DNA of 61,607 nt from SAR86 cluster bacterium (GTDB lineage: Bacteria > Pseudomonadota > Gammaproteobacteria > Magnimaribacterales > AG-339-G14): contig JAOIOC010000001.1 of NCBI GenBank assembly GCA_028140145.1, forward strand, positions 1-61,607, given 5' to 3'. This document shows positions 12,333-24,508 of the stretch, piece by piece (positions within the stretch are counted from its first letter, which is position 1; the number at the start of each line of letters is the position of its first letter). Made by a program: the position numbers and the translations under genes. The notes under the pieces were generated by a model. The model had not been told where the DNA came from, did no database searches, and saw nothing but the letters and a program-made list of their open reading frames with translations.

Positions 12333-13349
12333 CTAATTTAATAATTCTTCTACTACAAAAGGCCCCTTGTAAACAAAACTTGTATAAATCTGTATAAGAG
12401 ATGCGCCGTTATTTAATCTTTCTTCAACATCTCTTTTTGAAGAGATACCTCCAGAAGAGATCAAAGTTGCATCATCTCCAACAAGATTGCTAACCTTACG
12501 CAGCATTTCACTAGATTTTTGTTTTAACAGCTCGCCACTTATTCCTCCGCAAATACCCTCGAATTCACCCTGTGTTGTATTCGCTACAATATATCCATCA
12601 AAACCATTCGATAATGTAGCATCAACTATATCTTGAATATTTTCATCTTTTTCGTCTGGTGATAATTTTAAAAAAATTGGAACTACCTTATTAAATTTTC
12701 TATTTAATTCTTTTCTTGTTGAGGATATCTCCTTCGAAAGATCCTTAATATATTCCGGCGAAGTTAGTTTTCTTAGATCCTTTGTATTCGGAGATGAGAT
12801 ATTAATCGCAATGTAATCAGCTTGATTGAAGCATTCATGCATACAAAAGTTATAGTCAAGATATGCGTTTTCTAATGATGTATCTTTATTTTTTCCTATG
12901 CTGATTCCAAGAATTCCTGAAAAATTATTTTTGTTTGAAACAATATTTTCCATGCCTCTCAAAATTCCAGGATTATTGAAACCTAACCTATTTATGAGAG
13001 ATTTATTTTTTTGTAATCTTTTAATCCTTGGATAATCATTTCCTAATTGAGCCTTAGGCGTGAAGGTACCAACTTCTACAAAACTAAAACCAAGAGCGCT
13101 AAGAGAATGAAAATATTTCCCCTCTTTATCAATACCTGCAGATAAACCTAAATAGTGATCAAATTTTAAGCCTTCTACTTCAATTTTCATGGATTCAGAA
13201 GGAGATAAAATCTTTGATTCATTTAATTTTATTCCCAAAGAAATTAATATTTTTATTGAGTTTAAGCTTATGTAGCTAGAAAATTCTGGCGGCAAGAATC
13301 TCAGAGCAAATAATGCTAATTGAAAAAAGATTTTTTTAGCAAATATCAT
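12333..13349 (-). CDS. pyrD: dihydroorotate dehydrogenase (quinone), class 2
   Basis: Oxidises dihydroorotate to orotate in pyrimidine synthesis and passes electrons to quinone. At 338 residues it has the class 2 N-terminal membrane-associating helices (KKIFFQLALFALRFLPPEF), then LSAGIDKEGK, FVEVGTFTPKAQLGN, the substrate-binding NRLGFNNPG, and AINISSPNTKDLR with the catalytic serine region. FLKLSPD and ISSGGISS form the FMN site near the C-terminus. It is a separate gene from topA, 39 bases upstream on the same strand. No irregularities. Confidence 0.95.
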   Translation of the reverse strand: MIFAKKIFFQLALFALRFLPPEFSSYISLNSIKILISLGIKLNESKILSPSESMKIEVEGLKFDHYLGLSAGIDKEGKYFHSLSALGFSFVEVGTFTPKAQLGNDYPRIKRLQKNKSLINRLGFNNPGILRGMENIVSNKNNFSGILGISIGKNKDTSLENAYLDYNFCMHECFNQADYIAINISSPNTKDLRKLTSPEYIKDLSKEISSTRKELNRKFNKVVPIFLKLSPDEKDENIQDIVDATLSNGFDGYIVANTTQGEFEGICGGISGELLKQKSSEMLRKVSNLVGDDATLISSGGISSKRDVEERLNNGASLIQIYTSFVYKGPFVVEELLN

Positions 13350-13445
13350 CTTGATTAGACTATTCTAGATAAAAGATGATAAACCACCAGAAAAATAAAA
13401 AAATAATTTTGCATATACTTGAATAGATATATATCATGTCATCTA

Positions 13446-13461
13446 TATTCAATATTGAATA
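13446..13461. promoter_or_regulatory. perfect 16-bp palindrome upstream of the YjbE-like gene
   Basis: TATTCAATATTGAATA is an exact 8+8 inverted repeat, 16 bases before the start codon and just ahead of the AGAGG ribosome-binding site. Its position suggests an operator controlling the YjbE-like gene. The binding protein is unknown, and short AT-rich palindromes can arise by chance. Confidence 0.4.
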
Positions 13462-13477
13462 AATACAGAGGTTAACT

Positions 13478-13852
13478 ATGAAAACAATAAAGATTTCAAT
13501 TTTGACTCTAGCTCTTGCTTTAAGTCCTCTATCCTTTGCACAAAGCGCTGGGGGTTCTAATGCTGCTGGCTCAGCTGGTTCCTTATCAAGTGGCGTTATT
13601 GCTGCTATTGCTGCTGCAGTCCTTGCGGTGGCAGCGATTGTAGATGCGCAAGATGGAGAAAAAGTTGCCGCTCCTGCACCTATTGAACCTGTTCAAGAAG
13701 AAGCCGCTGCTGAAGAAGAGGCTCCTGCAACGGAAGAAGAAAGCACAAGTACACCTGCTACGAGCACAAGTACAAGCACTTCCACAAGCACCAGCACAAG
13801 TACTAGTACTAACACAGATACAAGCACTAGCTCTGCATCAGCAAGTTCATAA
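13478..13852 (+). CDS. YjbE/GfcA-like small secreted Ser/Thr-rich protein
   Basis: A 124-residue protein with a clear signal peptide (MKTIKISILTLALALSPLSFA, cleavage near AQS), a Gly/Ala-rich stretch, a hydrophobic segment GVIAAIAAAVLAVAAIV (residues 38-54), a Pro/Ala/Glu linker and a Ser-Thr repeat tail. Small exported proteins of this build, a hydrophobic segment then a Thr/Ser tail, are the first genes (yjbE, gfcA) of the E. coli yjbEFGH and group 4 capsule operons, and yjbF- and yjbH-like genes lie directly beyond it here. Here it is on the opposite strand from them, with its own ribosome-binding site (AGAGG) and palindrome. Molecular role unknown; family assignment is by architecture and context. 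Confidence 0.72.
   Translation: MKTIKISILTLALALSPLSFAQSAGGSNAAGSAGSLSSGVIAAIAAAVLAVAAIVDAQDGEKVAAPAPIEPVQEEAAAEEEAPATEEESTSTPATSTSTSTSTSTSTSTSTNTDTSTSSASASS
13763..13828 (+). repeat. degenerate 6-base tandem repeat coding for Ser-Thr
   Basis: Eleven imperfect six-base units of AGYACN type encode the Ser-Thr tail of the YjbE-like protein. Unit changes are mostly at third codon positions, and every unit keeps the frame, so the repeat looks selected at protein level rather than freshly expanded. Confidence 0.7.
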
Positions 13853-13870
13853 GTATTAATTAATTATTTC

Positions 13871-13902
13871 AAAAAGCCTGTTTAATTTTAATCAGGCTTT
13901 TT
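13871..13902 (+). terminator. bidirectional intrinsic terminator between the yjbE-like and yjbF-like genes
   Basis: AAAAAGCCTG (13871-13880) pairs perfectly with CAGGCTTTTT (13893-13902) around a 12-base loop; T-runs lie on both sides, so it can end transcription from both directions. Its right arm lies within the last codons and stop of the yjbF-like gene (stop at 13888-13890). Confidence 0.85.
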
Positions 13903-14541
13903 GTATTTTTTAGCGATTGTCATCTGAATTTCTGGGTTTTTGGGAGTGAAACTCTGTATTGATTTTAAAACACTTCCATAATCATCAATCCAATATAAAT
14001 TTCTGAATTTCCAATTTATCAAATTTTCTAGCGCGATTTCTTCATAAAGTTTTACCTTATAAAGATTTCCAAAAATTAAGATCTCTTCTTCTTTAATTAA
14101 ATTTATTTTAGTTTTGACTGGTAATCTGAAAAGCTTAGGGTTATTGAAAGTATAAAAAGAGGTAAAAATAGTCTTTCCTGTATCAAAATTTTTATTATTG
14201 AAAGGGTGATCTTTGTCTAACTCAATGTTATCAAGTTCATTTTCTAATCCTTTTGCTTTAACAATAAAGCCATTTTTAGTATAAATTTTTACCAGGTTTG
14301 AGGATGTCCATTTTAATATGCCATATCTATCTTCTTCTAGAACAAGTAATGTATTATTGCCTCTACCGAGTCTAACTTGCATTGAAGCGTAAGGTATAGA
14401 GTTTATGATATTTAAGGAAATATTTTCTGGTCCAGATATCAAAGTTTTTAAATTATTAAGTAGCTCAGAATATATACTTCCACTCGCACATGAAATAAAT
14501 AAAAAAGGGAATGCAATAATGAAAATCCTGATTTTATTCAT
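13888..14541 (-). CDS. yjbF: YjbF/GfcB-like lipoprotein
   Basis: A probable outer-membrane lipoprotein of about 217 residues. The start MNKIRIFIIAFPFLFISC gives a lipoprotein signal ending in ISC. The mature part has ASMQVRLGRGNNTLLVLEE, ILKWTSSNLVKIYTKNGFIVKAKGLEN and a C-terminal NWKFRNLYWIDDYGSVLKSIQSFTP, as in the YjbF/GfcB capsule-operon lipoproteins. An ATG at 14550 is possible, but AAGGG is directly against it; that same AAGGG lies 9 bases from the ATG at 14541, which is preferred. It overlaps yjbH by 8 bases and ends within a terminator. A yjbG/gfcC gene is missing. Confidence 0.72.
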   Translation of the reverse strand: MNKIRIFIIAFPFLFISCASGSIYSELLNNLKTLISGPENISLNIINSIPYASMQVRLGRGNNTLLVLEEDRYGILKWTSSNLVKIYTKNGFIVKAKGLENELDNIELDKDHPFNNKNFDTGKTIFTSFYTFNNPKLFRLPVKTKINLIKEEEILIFGNLYKVKLYEEIALENLINWKFRNLYWIDDYGSVLKSIQSFTPKNPEIQMTIAKKYKKPD

Positions 14542-16654
14542 TAAATCCATCCCTTAAATAATCTAAATAGTAAGCTGATGAATTATTTGTATATCCTTCT
14601 ATGCCTAATGTTCCAGACAGCATTGCGCCTCCATCTCTTGTTAAATTTCGCCAAACGAACCTAGCGTTATTTTTTCTATATTTACTTGAAACGATATCTA
14701 GTGGAATAGAAAAATATATACCTTTATCAAAACTTCCTTCTCCAAACTCAAAAGCAGAAATGTCAGTTTTTGTTGCAAAAAAACCCAGAGTAAACCCAGT
14801 TTTAAATGATTTTGAGAGGTTAAGGGTTATGCCAGAATCTTTTGCTAAATATCTGCCGCCTGATAGTATCATTTTGACTCCTTCTATAGGAGTCTCCCAT
14901 ATAAAATTCAAGTGCCCTGTGAATGTCTCATAGTCTCTGAAACTAAATCTTTGGTTGAATTGCCTCTGTTTTACCCAATAGTAATTTCCTGAAATATACC
15001 AAGGTTTTTGAATGTCTCTATATAAAAATTCTGCTCCTATTCCGCCATACATCTCTTCAAAAATACCTAGCTTCAAGCCTCCAAGAAATAAGTAATCTCT
15101 TGAATATTTAGGATTAAAAATTCGGCTATAGGTTAGTTCTTTGAGAGTATATTTTTCTTTTAAATATTCTCTTATATCAGATCTTACTTTGGGAAGCCTG
15201 GAGAAAGACCTTAATGTTAATTGATCAAGATTTTGAAAAATACCTAGGCCTATACTTGAGTCCAAAAAAGAATGTTGGTCAATTATAATTCCTGCCGAGG
15301 CTAATAATCCTATCTGACCAGAATAGAATGCTTCTGGTGCTCCGATATGATTTTTTAGATCTGGTTTAAGTCCCCAAGAGTACAAAGGATAATTTATTTG
15401 ACCTAAAAATATTCTACTTGAGGAATCTAATTCAAAGAAATTTTCATAATTAATGTATCTTTTCATCTCAAGAAGAGAAAGATTATTTTGTAAGAATTGC
15501 CTAAATTTCTCCAAAGGAAAAGATATTGAAGCCGTTTTAACATTGCCTGTCTGGAATATAATTGAAATATTTTTTATATCTCTTGTTTGAAGAATAGGGT
15601 CTGTAATTTGTATTACTCTTTTTGCCGCTAGATTAAGATTTCTATACTTTCCTTGATTAAGAGAAATATATAGATCATTTGATATTAAATAGATTTCCTG
15701 AGTATAAATTTCATATCCAGATAGCATAGCGTTTATTGTTCCTGTAAAAACTTCATCTTTTAAAGATAAAAGTTTTTTATCATCTTTTGAGAAAATAATA
15801 GATTTTACTGACTCATTTTTAGGTACTATAGGTTTTGCATAATTAGCTTTGTAAGAGAGCCCAAAACCTAAATCAATTCCTCTATGTTTGAATAAATTTA
15901 TGTCGACATATTTTGAAGCTGGTATAGAAAGCCCAAAACTATAATTTGATTTTTTTTCTAATGAAAAAGGATTAGATTTATCATAATCAATTTTTAATCT
16001 TAACCCTGAATATTTGTTCAAATATGAAAATCCGTAAAATGCTGATGCTTTTTCGCCTTTAAACCATCTATCAAGTTCAAAATCACCGCCTCTCCCATAA
16101 TTTGTAGGTCTGCTGGAGAATGATTTATCTAAATCAATTAATGGATTCTTTATACCATCAGAGTTAGATAATGAACCCCACCCCAATCCTACCGTAAAGT
16201 CAAAATCTCCAACTTTCTTCGAGGACACGATATACTCTCCTGAAAATTTTCCCGTTCCAATAAAATCTCTAAATCCAATACTTAGTTCAGGGAAACGTTC
16301 GGTTTCCTCTACTAATTTAATTTTTAAGTTAAAACTTTTATCTTTATAGGTTTGATCTCCAGAAAAAGATTTATATGGGCTATATTTACGAGTGTTAATA
16401 TCAGCATATCTCAAAGATACTTCCATCCAGTCAAAAGGATTAGCAGAAATGAATAAAGAATTTATTGGTTCAGAATTTACTAAGTGAAGCTTTAAGTTTC
16501 CTTGCTCAAGTATTCTTGAAGACGGAATATTTATTAGTCCGATTTCACCGCTTAGATTAGAAGTTAGTCCAACATCTGAGTAAATGTAATCATCTATTGA
16601 ACTACTCAAAGACAGTGAAAAAAATAATAGATATAAAAATAAATTATTTTTAAT
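14534..16654 (-). CDS. yjbH: YjbH/GfcD-family outer-membrane protein, apparent ATT start
   Basis: A large beta-rich protein of about 706 residues. The mature N-terminus (GEIGLINIPSSRILEQGNLKLHL, FISANPFDWMEVSLRYADI) and LSIGFRDFIGTGKFSGEYIV match the YjbH family, made with exopolysaccharide systems and thought to sit in the outer membrane. No ATG, GTG or TTG gives a complete N-terminus. A TTG at 16609 would remove the signal peptide, whereas reading from ATT at 16654 gives MKNNLFLYLLFFSLSLSSS, a good signal sequence. AGGA lies 7 bases before this ATT, which overlaps the preceding stop by one base. Product certain to family level; start codon inferred. Confidence 0.78.
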   Translation of the reverse strand: MKNNLFLYLLFFSLSLSSSIDDYIYSDVGLTSNLSGEIGLINIPSSRILEQGNLKLHLVNSEPINSLFISANPFDWMEVSLRYADINTRKYSPYKSFSGDQTYKDKSFNLKIKLVEETERFPELSIGFRDFIGTGKFSGEYIVSSKKVGDFDFTVGLGWGSLSNSDGIKNPLIDLDKSFSSRPTNYGRGGDFELDRWFKGEKASAFYGFSYLNKYSGLRLKIDYDKSNPFSLEKKSNYSFGLSIPASKYVDINLFKHRGIDLGFGLSYKANYAKPIVPKNESVKSIIFSKDDKKLLSLKDEVFTGTINAMLSGYEIYTQEIYLISNDLYISLNQGKYRNLNLAAKRVIQITDPILQTRDIKNISIIFQTGNVKTASISFPLEKFRQFLQNNLSLLEMKRYINYENFFELDSSSRIFLGQINYPLYSWGLKPDLKNHIGAPEAFYSGQIGLLASAGIIIDQHSFLDSSIGLGIFQNLDQLTLRSFSRLPKVRSDIREYLKEKYTLKELTYSRIFNPKYSRDYLFLGGLKLGIFEEMYGGIGAEFLYRDIQKPWYISGNYYWVKQRQFNQRFSFRDYETFTGHLNFIWETPIEGVKMILSGGRYLAKDSGITLNLSKSFKTGFTLGFFATKTDISAFEFGEGSFDKGIYFSIPLDIVSSKYRKNNARFVWRNLTRDGGAMLSGTLGIEGYTNNSSAYYLDYLRDGFNE

Positions 16655-19241
16655 TGTTATTTCCTAAAGCAGCAATGGCTGCAGCGCTGGTTGCAAAATT
16701 TGAAATAATAGGAAATAAAACTTGAGAAAATACTAGCCAGTCAAATGGATTAGGATCTCTAGGTATTATTAATGTAGTTCCGGGTGAAAGATCAGGAGAG
16801 TTGGGCCAAGTTCTTACCCTGGATGCCATTCCATTGGGGTATACAACTAAAGTTCTATTTTTATCTGCTTCTTCAGAATATCCTCCAGCTTGATTAATGT
16901 AATCCCTCACATTATTAGAAGGATTAAAAGTAAAACTAGTCGGTGATAAGACCTGTCCTGATACAGTTATTGTAGAAGGTCTATCAGGGACAAAAATTCT
17001 ATCGCCAGGTTCTAATAGAAGATCTTTTTCAGGTGACCTCTCCAGCAAGTCCAAATCAAATTCAGTTACGACTCTTCCTATAGGTTCAATGTTCTCAAGA
17101 TCTGTTATGAGGTTGGATATGGAAGTAAGAGCTAGAGTTGGGTCTCCTCCAACTGATGATATTCTTCCGCTTGAAATAGCTGTAGCAATTGATTGTTCCA
17201 GTTGATCAGCAGACCTCATAAATGCGATCTTTTCTTTTTCGGCAACTGATTTTCTTGCAAGAACTCCACCATAAGGAAATGCATTTGGTTTATATCCTCC
17301 CGCTCTTTTGATAATCTCAGATATTCTCTCACCCTGCTTAGCACCATAAATGCCAGGATTTTGGAAGGCTCCCTCAAGAGATACAGAGAAAATCTCTTGT
17401 TTAACTTTTGAGGCTAAGTTCGCATAAAAACTAGAATTTACTCCTAATTCAAATAAATTTTTGTTTTCGAATACATCTAGCTTTAAAGAGATTCCATCAT
17501 CTGTATAGATATCAATCATTCCAGAAAACTTCTCAGAAGGACCGCCTGCATAAGATAGTAAATCTAGTGTTGATGAAATATTAAAAGAAGGATAAATTCC
17601 TGGATTTCTTACCTCTCCAGAAATTACAGAAGCATTTTCTAAAGCAAAGATAATCAAGTATGGTTTCTTTTCAAAAATAAATGGGCATTCTTCTATAAAT
17701 TCTAATTGATCTATAGCTTCCACATCTGGGTTTGGTAAATATTTTGATTTTACAAATCTTATTGACGAACTTGATGTTTGTCTCGCTAACATTTGAAGCG
17801 ATTTGCATTGGTATCTATCTAAGTTTTTTGATTTAAAGTAATTAGCAAGACTCTCAGAATCATTATTACTCAGAATATTCAAAGCATCTGCAACAAGTAT
17901 TGAATTTAAAAACTTAACATCCTCTTGAGACAAGACGTAAATTACATCATTGGACTTTAAACTTGTTTCGCTCCCATCATCATTATATAAATTTGCTTTG
18001 AGAAGGCTCTTTGAGCCAAAGTTGTTTTCCCTTTCGATAATTGCAAAAGGTGCGTATGTAGATTCAAAAAAATCTTCTGGCTTAATTATTTCTTCCAGCA
18101 AAAGACCTTCTTCAAAAGCAACTGATCCTGAAGATGAAATTGCACCAACTATTTTGATAATATTTCTAGGCGTATTAGATAAGTTATGAACATATATTTC
18201 GTCACCATCCTTAAGAATGACGTTATTTATTTCATTCAAAGAAAGATTTTTGTATATTCTTTCACCATTATCAGCATATGAACTCAAGGTTATCTTATTT
18301 TTGTTTGCTTTGTTTGTTAGGCCTGATGAAAAGAATAATAAATCCTCGAATGTCTCATCTTCATTTAATTCAAATCTAGCGGGATTCTTTACTTCTCCAG
18401 ATATTGTGACAGTCTTTCCTGTTGGGTTTATTAACAGTGCATCATTAGATTGAAGCCTAATATCATTCTTAATATTTCCTCTAGTGAGAAGCTCATAAAA
18501 ATCTAAATTCGCAATTGTGTTTCCATCTCTTTTGACCGATATCTTTCTTAAAGAACCGTTTTCTGTTGGTCCACCTGAAAAGAATAAAACGTTTGAAACA
18601 TTAGACAAAGAGCTTACTGTATATGCTCCTGGACTAAAGGCATTACCCAATACAAAAATTTGTATAGATCTTATTTTTGCCAGAGAAATTTCTGCACTCA
18701 CTCCAATTAAAGATGCATTAATGACGGACTTTATTTTATCAATGGCCTCCCGAAAAACTAATCCAGAAATCTCGATAGAGCCAACTTGAGGAATTACAAT
18801 GTTACCTTCTCTGTTAACTGGAACAATTCTATTCGAATCAACTGAACCAAAAAGCTGTACTTTAAGTTCATCGCCGGGACCTAAAACATAATCAAGAGGG
18901 GCAGGAGCTAAGTCAATAGGTGCAAAAGTTGATGGAGAGTCCTTGAATAAATTAAGACCGAAGATTTCTAAGCTTGTTGTATTAAAAATACTATTTTCAG
19001 ATGATGAAATTTCATTTGTTTCTTTGGGTACAGAGCTATCAAAAGAAGCTATGTCGAAATCTTCCATTATGATCTCATCATTTATTGGTTTACCGGTTTG
19101 TATTCCTAACTTTTCGCTAATTGATGAGGCCTGACTTTCCGGAAGAAGATCTAAGTAATCTAGATCAGAATCAGATTGCGAAATGATAAAGCTTGAAAAA
19201 AAAATATAAATAAAAAAAGAAATTTTAATTGAGGATGACAT
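16650..19241 (-). CDS. Wza-like polysaccharide export protein with several SLBB domains
   Basis: A secreted protein of about 863 residues in the outer-membrane polysaccharide export family. After a signal peptide (SSSIKISFFIYIFFSSFIIS) and an acidic linker comes the Poly_export domain (PLDYVLGPGDELKVQLFGSVDSN), then about five SLBB domains, recognisable as VLGNAFSPGAYTV, ISGEVKNPARFEL, ISGEVRNPGIYPS, LEGAFQNPGIYG and VSGQVLSPTSFTF, each ending in a GG(P/Y/L) turn. Classical Wza has about 380 residues, so this is a long form. The ATG at 19241 is 2 bases past nadK; a longer start would overlap nadK. No lipobox is seen. No polymerase, flippase or tyrosine kinase is adjacent. Confidence 0.85.
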   Translation of the reverse strand: MSSSIKISFFIYIFFSSFIISQSDSDLDYLDLLPESQASSISEKLGIQTGKPINDEIIMEDFDIASFDSSVPKETNEISSSENSIFNTTSLEIFGLNLFKDSPSTFAPIDLAPAPLDYVLGPGDELKVQLFGSVDSNRIVPVNREGNIVIPQVGSIEISGLVFREAIDKIKSVINASLIGVSAEISLAKIRSIQIFVLGNAFSPGAYTVSSLSNVSNVLFFSGGPTENGSLRKISVKRDGNTIANLDFYELLTRGNIKNDIRLQSNDALLINPTGKTVTISGEVKNPARFELNEDETFEDLLFFSSGLTNKANKNKITLSSYADNGERIYKNLSLNEINNVILKDGDEIYVHNLSNTPRNIIKIVGAISSSGSVAFEEGLLLEEIIKPEDFFESTYAPFAIIERENNFGSKSLLKANLYNDDGSETSLKSNDVIYVLSQEDVKFLNSILVADALNILSNNDSESLANYFKSKNLDRYQCKSLQMLARQTSSSSIRFVKSKYLPNPDVEAIDQLEFIEECPFIFEKKPYLIIFALENASVISGEVRNPGIYPSFNISSTLDLLSYAGGPSEKFSGMIDIYTDDGISLKLDVFENKNLFELGVNSSFYANLASKVKQEIFSVSLEGAFQNPGIYGAKQGERISEIIKRAGGYKPNAFPYGGVLARKSVAEKEKIAFMRSADQLEQSIATAISSGRISSVGGDPTLALTSISNLITDLENIEPIGRVVTEFDLDLLERSPEKDLLLEPGDRIFVPDRPSTITVSGQVLSPTSFTFNPSNNVRDYINQAGGYSEEADKNRTLVVYPNGMASRVRTWPNSPDLSPGTTLIIPRDPNPFDWLVFSQVLFPIISNFATSAAAIAALGNNN
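16652..16665 (-). promoter_or_regulatory. ribosome-binding site and ATT start of yjbH
   Basis: On the minus strand AGGA (16665-16662) is followed after 7 bases by ATT (16654-16652), whose last T is the first base of the TAA stop of the Wza-like gene. The spacing is that of a normal ribosome-binding site, and the one-base stop/start overlap is typical of coupled genes. ATT is a rare but real bacterial start codon (infC is the known example). Confidence 0.6.
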
Positions 19242-19243
19242 TA

Positions 19244-20095
19244 TCAATCTTGCTTTAAATGTTCTATGGATACAGCCCAACCCAGCTTGGTCCTGCATGC
19301 TTCGAAGTAATTATAATCTTTAGGATGATAAAGTTTAAAAGTTTTTTTTGTATTAGATACTTTTAAACCCTTATTTGTGTATTTTAAGTTCTTTTTTCCA
19401 TCTACAAAAATTTGAATAGAGTTTAAATTTTTATTTTTAATTTTGACACTAACCTCTTCTTTGTTAGATAAAAGTAAGCTATGCGAAGAAGAGCTATGGG
19501 AAAACATTGGTAATAAAGAAATGGCATCTAACTTTGGTGAAATTATTGGACCTCCGCCTGAATAAGAGTATGCGGTTGAACCAGTACTTGATGAAATAAT
19601 TAAACCATCTGCTTTTAAATTATAGATTACTTGATCTTTTAAGCTTATCTCAAGATCAAGCATTTTTGTAACAGATCCAGAGTGAATTACGACCTCATTA
19701 AGGAATATTTCCTTTTTTTTGATGCTTGAATAAGCCTCAAAAACTGGCCTGTTCTCTTTCAAGTAAGACCCTTGCAAAATATCTTTTAGTTTATCAATTT
19801 TACTAAGTGATAAGTCAGTTAGGAATCCTACAGTCCCTGAATTAATTCCTAAAAAGGGTACATTTAAAGAATGAAGATTTCTAATGGAACCGATCATTGT
19901 TCCATCTCCACCAAGCACAAGGATAAGCTCTGCTTTTGAAGCTTTTTTAATTATTTCAGAATTTAGTTTCTTTACGTTTGTTGAAAGGATGACCTCAGAA
20001 TCAGAGGCTTCTACTATTTCATTAACTCTAAGAAGGGCTTTATCAGTTTTTCTGGTTGCAGAGAAAATAACCGCTATTTTATTAATCTTTTTCAT
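19244..20095 (-). CDS. nadK: NAD kinase
   Basis: Phosphorylates NAD to NADP. At 283 residues it has the hallmark LVLGGDGTMIGSIR near residue 58, GINSGTVGFLTDL, NEVVIHSG and the triad-containing SSSTGSTAYSYSGGGPIISP near residue 170, all standard for NadK. Its first 14 bases overlap the end of yhhQ and its stop is 2 bases before the Wza-like gene, so it is part of a yhhQ-nadK-wza-like-yjbH-yjbF transcript. Co-transcription with envelope genes is unusual but has no obvious functional logic. Confidence 0.96.
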   Translation of the reverse strand: MKKINKIAVIFSATRKTDKALLRVNEIVEASDSEVILSTNVKKLNSEIIKKASKAELILVLGGDGTMIGSIRNLHSLNVPFLGINSGTVGFLTDLSLSKIDKLKDILQGSYLKENRPVFEAYSSIKKKEIFLNEVVIHSGSVTKMLDLEISLKDQVIYNLKADGLIISSSTGSTAYSYSGGGPIISPKLDAISLLPMFSHSSSSHSLLLSNKEEVSVKIKNKNLNSIQIFVDGKKNLKYTNKGLKVSNTKKTFKLYHPKDYNYFEACRTKLGWAVSIEHLKQD

Positions 20096-20816
20096 ATGTA
20101 GGTGTCCAACTTCTTACAACATATATAAACAAAGTATCTATTATCGCAATAATGACCTTAAAAATATATTTAGTTAATGCAATTGAAAGAGCAACAAAAA
20201 AGCTTAATTCTCCAGCTATTACCCAAACAAAAGTATAAATAAAGGTATCTAATGCCTGAGAAGAGAGAGTTGAAAGATTATTCCTTAGCCAGAGATATTT
20301 TCCTTTTGTAATATCTTTAATTTTATTAAAAAGCCATACATCAAAAGTTTGACTTATTAAATAAGCAGTAATTGATCCAATTACAAATATTGGTGAATAA
20401 AATGCGAGAGTTTCTATTGCGCTATGAACAGATTGAGATGATGCAGCTATTTGAGAGGGAAGATAATAAGTGCTGAGAACCAATGTAAACATGATGACTA
20501 TATTAGAGATAGCTCCTAAAATTACCGCAAAATTTGCTTCTCTTCTTCCATACTTTTCACTTATTAAATCAGTTGCAAAGTATATTCCTGAGTACATTAT
20601 GGCTCCCATGCTGACTGTAAAAGTTTGTCCAAAAAAATTTAGGTCGCTTACTTTTCCTCCCTGAAGATTCGCCAACATTATTCCTAATGTAACAGCAATG
20701 TATAAGCCCCTGAGTCCGAACAATTTAAATAAAATAACAGTAATAGTTAAATCATAGAAAACTGTAAAAACCCATAAAAATTCTGGGTTTTCTGATAGAA
20801 ATGAAAAAAAATTCAT
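20082..20816 (-). CDS. yhhQ: queuosine-precursor transporter (YhhQ/VUT family)
   Basis: A 244-residue membrane protein of the DUF165 (VUT) family with about six hydrophobic helices. Family signatures are visible: LGIMLANLQGGKVSDLNFFGQTFTVSMGAIMYSGIYFATDLISEKYGRREAN, and VIGSITAYLISQTFDVWLFNKIK. E. coli YhhQ imports the queuosine precursors preQ0/preQ1. It starts an apparent minus-strand operon and overlaps nadK by 14 bases. Specific substrate here is inferred from the family. Confidence 0.88.
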   Translation of the reverse strand: MNFFSFLSENPEFLWVFTVFYDLTITVILFKLFGLRGLYIAVTLGIMLANLQGGKVSDLNFFGQTFTVSMGAIMYSGIYFATDLISEKYGRREANFAVILGAISNIVIMFTLVLSTYYLPSQIAASSQSVHSAIETLAFYSPIFVIGSITAYLISQTFDVWLFNKIKDITKGKYLWLRNNLSTLSSQALDTFIYTFVWVIAGELSFFVALSIALTKYIFKVIIAIIDTLFIYVVRSWTPTYEKD

Positions 20817-23634: not shown

Positions 23635-23638
23635 GATT
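23624..23638 (+). promoter_or_regulatory. Shine-Dalgarno followed by an ATT start codon
   Basis: AAGGAGG at 23624-23630, within the last codons of mazG, is followed after 5 bases by ATT (23636-23638), in frame with the acyltransferase. This is the strongest ribosome-binding site in the region and no ATG, GTG or TTG is placed to use it. Confidence 0.65.
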
Positions 23639-24508
23639 TCACATATTAAAGCCGCATTTTGTTTTCTTCTTTTATGCATCAACACAGCTACTCTCTCGAT
23701 TTTCTTAATCTTTGCTGGCATCATTAAAATTGTTCTCCCAATTCAGTCTTTAAAACTTCTTCTAACTCGCTTCATAATCAAAGTTGGTGAATTATGGATT
23801 GACATAAATAACCTTTGGATTCAGTTTATTCTAAAGCCTAAATGGACCGTTGAAGGCTTTGAGGAAATGGATAAAAAATCCTGGTATCTATCGTTATCTA
23901 ATCATCAATCTTGGGCTGATATATTTATTGTCCAAATGATTACAAATAGAAAAGTTCCTATGCTTAAATTTTTTATGAAATTTGTCCTTATTTACGTTCC
24001 TGTTATCGGAATATGTTGGTGGGCATTGGATATGCCATTTCTTAAGAGATATACAAAAGATCAGCTAGAAAGAAATCCCTCTCTCAGAGGCAAAGACTTT
24101 GCATCCATGAAGAAATCTTTTAAAAAGTATAGTCTTTATCCAATCTCTGTTTTTAGTTTTACCGAAGGTACGAGATTCACAGAACAAAAGCATAAAGATC
24201 AGAATAGTCCCTTCAATAATCTACTTAAACCCAAAGAAGGAGGATTGGCTGCTGCAATATCAACAATGCCAAGACTTGATAAGATTATTGAATTCACAAT
24301 TATTTATGAATCAAAAAAAAGGAGCTTCTGGGATTTCTTGAGGGGAAATATGAACAATGCACGAATATTTGTGCAGTCGTTAGATATTCCTGATAAATTC
24401 AAAAATGATCAACTTCATGAAAATGATGGATTAAGAAAAGAATTTAAAGATTGGCTCAATGAAATATGGCACAAAAAAGATAAACTAATAAATGAAAATA
24501 AATTTTAA
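23636..24508 (+). CDS. YihG-like 1-acyl-glycerol-3-phosphate acyltransferase, apparent ATT start
   Basis: A membrane acyltransferase of about 290 residues resembling E. coli YihG. It has two N-terminal hydrophobic helices (FCFLLLCINTATLSIFLIFAGIIKIVLP), the catalytic NHQSWAD (His-x4-Asp), YVPVIGICWWALDMPFLKRYTK, and SFTEGTRFTEQKHKDQ (motif III, usually FPEGTR), then LLKPKEGGLAAA. It would acylate lysophosphatidate-type lipids at the inner membrane. The long open frame upstream from 23549 lies inside mazG and is not protein-like. The first internal ATG would remove the membrane helices. The ATT at 23636 has an ideal Shine-Dalgarno 5 bases upstream and gives the right N-terminus. Confidence 0.85.
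   Translation: MSHIKAAFCFLLLCINTATLSIFLIFAGIIKIVLPIQSLKLLLTRFIIKVGELWIDINNLWIQFILKPKWTVEGFEEMDKKSWYLSLSNHQSWADIFIVQMITNRKVPMLKFFMKFVLIYVPVIGICWWALDMPFLKRYTKDQLERNPSLRGKDFASMKKSFKKYSLYPISVFSFTEGTRFTEQKHKDQNSPFNNLLKPKEGGLAAAISTMPRLDKIIEFTIIYESKKRSFWDFLRGNMNNARIFVQSLDIPDKFKNDQLHENDGLRKEFKDWLNEIWHKKDKLINENKF

Follow-up and report, generated by a model that had tools for sequence, protein, structure and literature searches.

The yjbH gene in a genus of SAR86 cluster bacteria appears to start at an ATT codon that overlaps the stop codon of the upstream polysaccharide-export gene by one base. We consider it likely that yjbH starts at this fused AUU by coupled re-initiation, with an output that would be low and tied to that of the export protein; we infer the actual use of AUU, the re-initiation, the low output and the sensitivity to initiation factor IF3 from sequence comparison. 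A conserved AUU fused to an upstream stop suggests a built-in means of keeping YjbH output low.

The window analysed here is a stretch of 61,607 nt (contig JAOIOC010000001.1). On its minus strand the junction reads CTTT AGGA AATAACA ATT AAA AAT AAT TTA: the ATT start codon of yjbH (16652..16654) stands behind a Shine-Dalgarno-like AGGA (16662..16665) with a 7-nt spacer, and shares one base with the upstream TAA (16652-16650), making a 5-nt gene overlap, ATTAA, at 16650..16654. The export gene ends in TTA GGA AAT AAC AAT TAA, and yjbH reads GAA ATA ACA ATT AAA AAT AAT TTA TTT in a stop-to-stop frame that opens at 16663. The sequence confirms what an earlier sequence-only reading had described—an ATT start overlapping the upstream stop by one base, with AGGA seven bases before. 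The earliest ATG, GTG or TTG in the window's yjbH, and the sole canonical in-frame codon near its N-terminus, is a TTG at 16607..16609 on the minus strand (codon 15, counting ATT as 0), which lies past the hydrophobic core; a start there gives a signal-less YjbH. As judged from the translation, no ATG, GTG or TTG in yjbH of the window genome yields a signal-peptide-like N-terminus. A search of positions 13000-20500 for Rfam elements gave 0 matches at the gathering score.

Read from the ATT to its stop (14534..16654, minus strand), yjbH encodes a GfcD/YjbH outer-membrane protein of 706 aa that matches PF06082 over most of the profile's length (526.5 bits, E 1.7e-157, profile 4-647 of 658). It opens with the signal-peptide-like stretch (M)KNNLFLYLLFFSLSLSSS (16598..16654, minus strand), identified by hydropathy. 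The upstream gene (16650..19241, minus strand) is of the SLBB/polysaccharide-export (OPX/Wza) type, with matches to PF10531, PF22461 and PF02563; its start at ATG 19241 is our choice and the likely one, the earlier listed ATG 19298 overlapping the neighbouring gene. Downstream, a YjbF-type lipoprotein gene (13888..14550, minus strand; PF11102, 89.2 bits) overlaps the end of yjbH. Beside these three genes, on the plus strand at 13478-13852, lies a frame for a small Ala/Ser/Thr-rich, secreted-looking protein that has no Pfam match and that we take to be reminiscent of YjbE/GfcA.

Our genus set comprises nine mutually related genomes, the window's own included, and yjbH was found in all of them, the other eight proteins being 59-96% identical to the window's. 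The ATT is invariant (9/9). The stop/start junction is fused in all nine genomes (ATTAA in eight, ATTAG in one), whereas AGGA is present in 4/9; conservation is stronger for the fused junction than for the AGGA. No ATG, GTG or TTG near the N-terminus is common to the nine genomes, and ATT is the sole candidate among ATG, GTG, TTG and ATT that is. Relatives starting at TTG 16609, or carrying ATG in place of the ATT, had been named as outcomes that would speak against the ATT; the TTG is present in two of the nine genomes and the ATG in none. Started at ATT, YjbH shows in every genome a K or R (codon AAA, AAG or AGA) followed by a hydrophobic stretch, judged by hydropathy only, with a best 10-residue value of 2.1-2.8; the mature part then opens with a conserved motif (SSIDDY, GSIEDY, SSLEDY or SSIEDY). 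As a group, the nine genes thus combine a conserved near-cognate codon with the lack of a usable ATG, GTG or TTG. This is strictest in genome G003, which has no such codon from the upstream stop to codon 75; entry into the frame there would have to be non-canonical or by frameshift.

The conservation of the ATT is partly forced, because the codon sits within an upstream Asn codon and the stop. Seven of the final 54 columns of the export gene (stop included) are invariant in the nine genomes; two of the seven are TGG, and the set also takes in the last two Asn codons (AAC and AAT). Besides the last Asn column there are five all-Asn columns in this stretch, and two of the five are invariant. This comparison of codons offers mild support at best. 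RNA structure predicted around the ATT varies among the nine genomes, and we saw no common element.

Outside the genus the picture differs. We found yjbH in 60 of 121 genomes of the order, 8 in the genus and 52 outside it; among the genomes listed, 20 others belong to the same family and none of them has the gene (41 further genomes lacking a match stand outside that list). Out-of-genus loci were read by eye for 22 of the 52 matching genomes, and 21 of the 22 have an ATG, GTG or TTG either before the signal-peptide stretch or at it. The ATT state is best read as acquired in the genus, although the nearest relatives that keep yjbH belong to other families. The exception, locus L032 of genome G103 from another SAR86 family, lacks a canonical start in frame near the signal peptide, and an out-of-frame ATG precedes a run of nine T, which may point to an indel or to another non-standard start.

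Under coupled re-initiation, a ribosome that completes the export protein would halt at UAA, the AUU then lying practically in the P site; a minority of such ribosomes would re-initiate there with the ordinary fMet-tRNA (anticodon CAU). The poor third-base pairing of AUU, together with the disfavouring of such pairs by IF3, would hold YjbH far below the export protein, and YjbH output would be tied to export protein output. Elements of this scheme have precedents: re-initiation in E. coli has been reported from non-AUG codons when the initiator tRNA was mutated to match; it requires features of that tRNA as well as IF2, and excess IF3 lowers it, the reduction by extra IF3 applying where no ribosome-binding site is present (PMC2268962). 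Rising IF3 disfavours weak third-base pairs, including that of AUU with CAU, and for the AUU/CAU pair in vitro the full-length share is given as falling to 31.1% as IF3 was raised (PMC10158994). More speculatively, the barrel protein may serve the export pore and be required in smaller numbers than it, which low output would suit. Wza is described as octameric (PMC11494523), OPX proteins as pairing genomically with YjbH-type barrels (PMC9603273), and gene pairs with overlapping stop and start as often encoding partners of one complex (PMC10666635); that a small share of YjbH would suit a barrel working with a multimeric export pore is our conjecture.

We weighed three other ways of entering the frame. 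The start might vary between species among neighbouring canonical or near-canonical codons (TTG, GTG or ATA), with the ATT a bystander kept in place by the Asn codon that it overlaps. Taken singly, eight of the nine genomes do have some TTG or GTG near the start, at six codon positions in all: TTG four codons upstream of the ATT in G004, G007 and G008, GTG/TTG 11 and 14 codons upstream in G005, and TTG within the gene at codon 4 in G002, codon 7 in G006 and codon 15 in G000 and G001. An in-frame ATA stands two codons upstream in 8/9 genomes, and the base pattern of the ATT is partly dictated by AAT plus TAA. These positions are not common to the genomes, however, and G003 has no ATG, GTG or TTG near the start at all; those of G000, G001, G006 and G002 cut or remove the charged start or the hydrophobic core, and the TTG at -4, which would also give a signal-peptide-like N-terminus, shows by eye no evident ribosome-binding motif. 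We regard this reading as unlikely. The single candidates fare no better as a shared start—the upstream ATA is replaced by ACA in G007 and lies 1 nt from the AGGA in the window, and TTG 16609 is dropped on its presence in two genomes only.

De novo initiation at the AUU on the AGGA, free of any coupling, would fit the 7-nt spacing of that motif in the window as well as the gene waaA (below), which appears to use GGAG-N6-ATT with no upstream gene seen to end there. Since the AGGA is missing in five of the nine genomes that retain the fused junction, we give this reading little credence. Least of all do we favour a +1 ribosomal frameshift near the stop that would yield an export-YjbH fusion: yjbH does lie in the +1 frame at the export-gene stop and lacks a good start, but AAC AAT TAA offers, as we reason it (not by computation), no good re-pairing after a +1 slip, a fusion would bury the signal-peptide-like stretch in mid-protein, and nearly all yjbH loci read outside the genus (21 of 22) have a canonical codon of their own near the N-terminus. 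On these three grounds the fusion was rejected, and we put its chance at very slight.

Coupled re-initiation at the fused AUU thus remains our preferred account of yjbH, and the gene is not alone in its start codon. A plsC-like acyltransferase gene (23636..24508, plus strand), probably the other ATT case of the sequence-only reading, begins GGAGG-ATAAG-ATT 1 nt after the stop of a mazG-like gene; both names are presumed from resemblance rather than from a family search. The ATT is kept in 8/8 genus loci (nine in all, with G001, which holds the far end of the gene only, left out). In sister genus g2 the start is ATG (three) or GTG (one), and across the 11 of 24 out-of-genus loci readable by eye it is ATG in ten and GTG in one. 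Conservation of this ATT says less because the gene evolves slowly, the other loci differing synonymously from the window in 15-49 of 291 codons. The gene we take to be waaA, for Kdo transferase, has an apparent ATT start (GGAG-N6-ATT) in 5/5 genus genomes read of the nine (G006:C1 about 240771, minus strand; G000:C47 about 45149, minus strand; loci L188-L191), and ATG in all 14 of 26 out-of-genus loci readable by eye. We saw no upstream gene ending at the waaA ATT; use of ATT and coupling would therefore be separable. The IF3 gene infC starts with ATA in 9/9 genus genomes; outside the genus, by eye, it has ATG in the seven loci read of genera g2-g4, ATA in the four read of family f2 and a mixed picture in family f3. 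Out-of-genus loci in which the motif filters missed the gene are uncounted here (plsC 13/24, infC 11/26, waaA 12/26).

The breadth of such usage was gauged by scanning for conserved frames that lack a canonical start. In the main scan (G006:C1:60001-560000, 500 kb, against stretches of six other genus genomes), 37 of 455 conserved frames were flagged, and inspection by eye, of the translations of all 37 and the codons of some, left as real cases yjbH, the plsC-like gene and waaA (ATT), infC (ATA) and a candidate CTG in a zapE-like gene. A scan from 400 kb of G001 flagged 13 of 264 frames, the zapE-like gene alone being kept as a candidate; in the first 138.5 kb scanned, on G000:C1, 14 of 102 frames were flagged and yjbH, infC and the plsC-like gene stood out; a further scan flagged 48 + 6 of 280 frames. 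The flagged sets contain spurious frames, rRNA among them, and all scans cover genus members only. All four accepted cases fall inside a span of about 150 kb in G006, and the remaining 319 kb of that scan (to 560 kb) held no case except the CTG one; with such clustering no single rate is to be quoted. The suggestion that several envelope genes use ATT has therefore held up, and been extended to three, but general tolerance of ATT has not, given so few real cases among the frames flagged. Of the good ribosome-binding sites likewise claimed for the ATT genes, the AGGA of yjbH is not constant.

The initiation machinery looks ordinary. IF3 aligns with the solved IF3 8jsg_A (residues 14-180 of 182), which we take to be that of E. 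coli, and the arginines that matter, those of FRPG, RFI, RFRGRE, R-I and EGRQ, are kept by eye. The proposed check on the IF3 gene and its residues thus lends no weight to a relaxed IF3. ARAGORN gave no initiator-type tRNA on the available genus stretches, and an exact pattern search was used in its place. Each of the nine genomes has one CGGGCTCATAACCCG, an initiator-type anticodon stem with CAU, which argues against an unusual initiator tRNA; the other pattern matches, in 8/9 genomes, are CGGGGTTCGAACCCG, read as T-arm. The exact CGGGCTCATAACCCG pattern would miss an altered stem. Both IF3 and the initiator tRNA look ordinary, with no sign of a changed code or a lax factor, and this would point to selective, local use of AUU rather than general laxity.

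That weak near-cognate starts attenuate output and can be regulated by IF3 is already known (PMC5472188, PMC13009471). Output-limiting starts other than ATG, GTG or TTG are described, likewise, for E. coli infC and pcnB (both AUU), Streptomyces sigR (GTC), and S. aureus cvfC1 (AUU) and ccpN (AUA), those of infC and sigR being repressed by IF3 (PMC5472188, PMC13009471). In S. aureus reporters AUU and AUA starts gave less than AUG (PMC13009471); the S. aureus sites, as described there, have extended ribosome-binding motifs, whereas in yjbH the motif is poorly conserved and the start is merged with the stop of the gene before it. Termination-reinitiation pairs of the -4 (ATGA) or -1 (TAATG) kind share bases between stop and start (PMC10666635), as yjbH does in all nine genomes, but the yjbH overlap is -5. 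The same source reports the -5 overlap as more than 1,000-fold rarer than -4; it seems ruled out for starts ending in G and can arise from ATT with any of the three stops. For ATT itself a figure of about 0.3% of ATG is cited there. The GfcABCDE and YjbEFGH operons with OPX present the same neighbourhood of YjbH, SLBB/Poly_export and YjbF lipoprotein, and differ from the window in start codon and junction (PMC9603273). Among the titles and abstract openings listed by our searches of an open-access library, we recognised no prior report of a conserved 5-nt overlap or of an envelope gene set sharing AUU; the new part is this overlap and the three envelope genes on AUU.

These starts bear on both annotation and mechanism. 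Gene finders rely on ATG, GTG and TTG and produce wrong N-termini otherwise, as reported for sigR and infC (PMC5472188); in the case of YjbH the signal peptide would be lost. The three AUU starts that this genus shows in 455 conserved frames may be set against a single AUG-to-AUU switch in 61,358 ancestral AUG starts across 36 genome groups (PMC5622118), a figure probably limited by annotation. The 5-nt overlap, thought to be excluded with ordinary starts, provides a natural test of the proof-reading of re-initiating ribosomes by IF3. A wider idea, which strikes us as improbable, is that AUU could serve envelope assembly (yjbH, plsC-like, waaA) as a dedicated start of low output, read out via the level of IF3, itself on AUA, such that the cell's translation-initiation state would set how fast the envelope is built, and that the -5 overlap would be a real, selected type of junction.

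Two further frames deserve mention. The one we take to be a zapE/AFG1-like ATPase (G006:C1 about 526947, minus strand; matching frame on G001:C1) has no ATG, GTG or TTG near its conserved N-terminus in the two genomes; a CTG common to both is a candidate start, with no evident ribosome-binding motif. All 16 loci examined (G000:C1 about 76973-77005, minus strand, in L001; L036-L043; L133, L134, L137-L141) have an open frame of 9-12 codons between thrS and infC, with a TTG start behind AAGGAGG. Its stop overlaps the infC ATA (as ATAG) in all nine genus genomes and, in seven loci of sister genera, falls 2-3 nt before the infC ATG; this short frame looks like a coupling leader for IF3.
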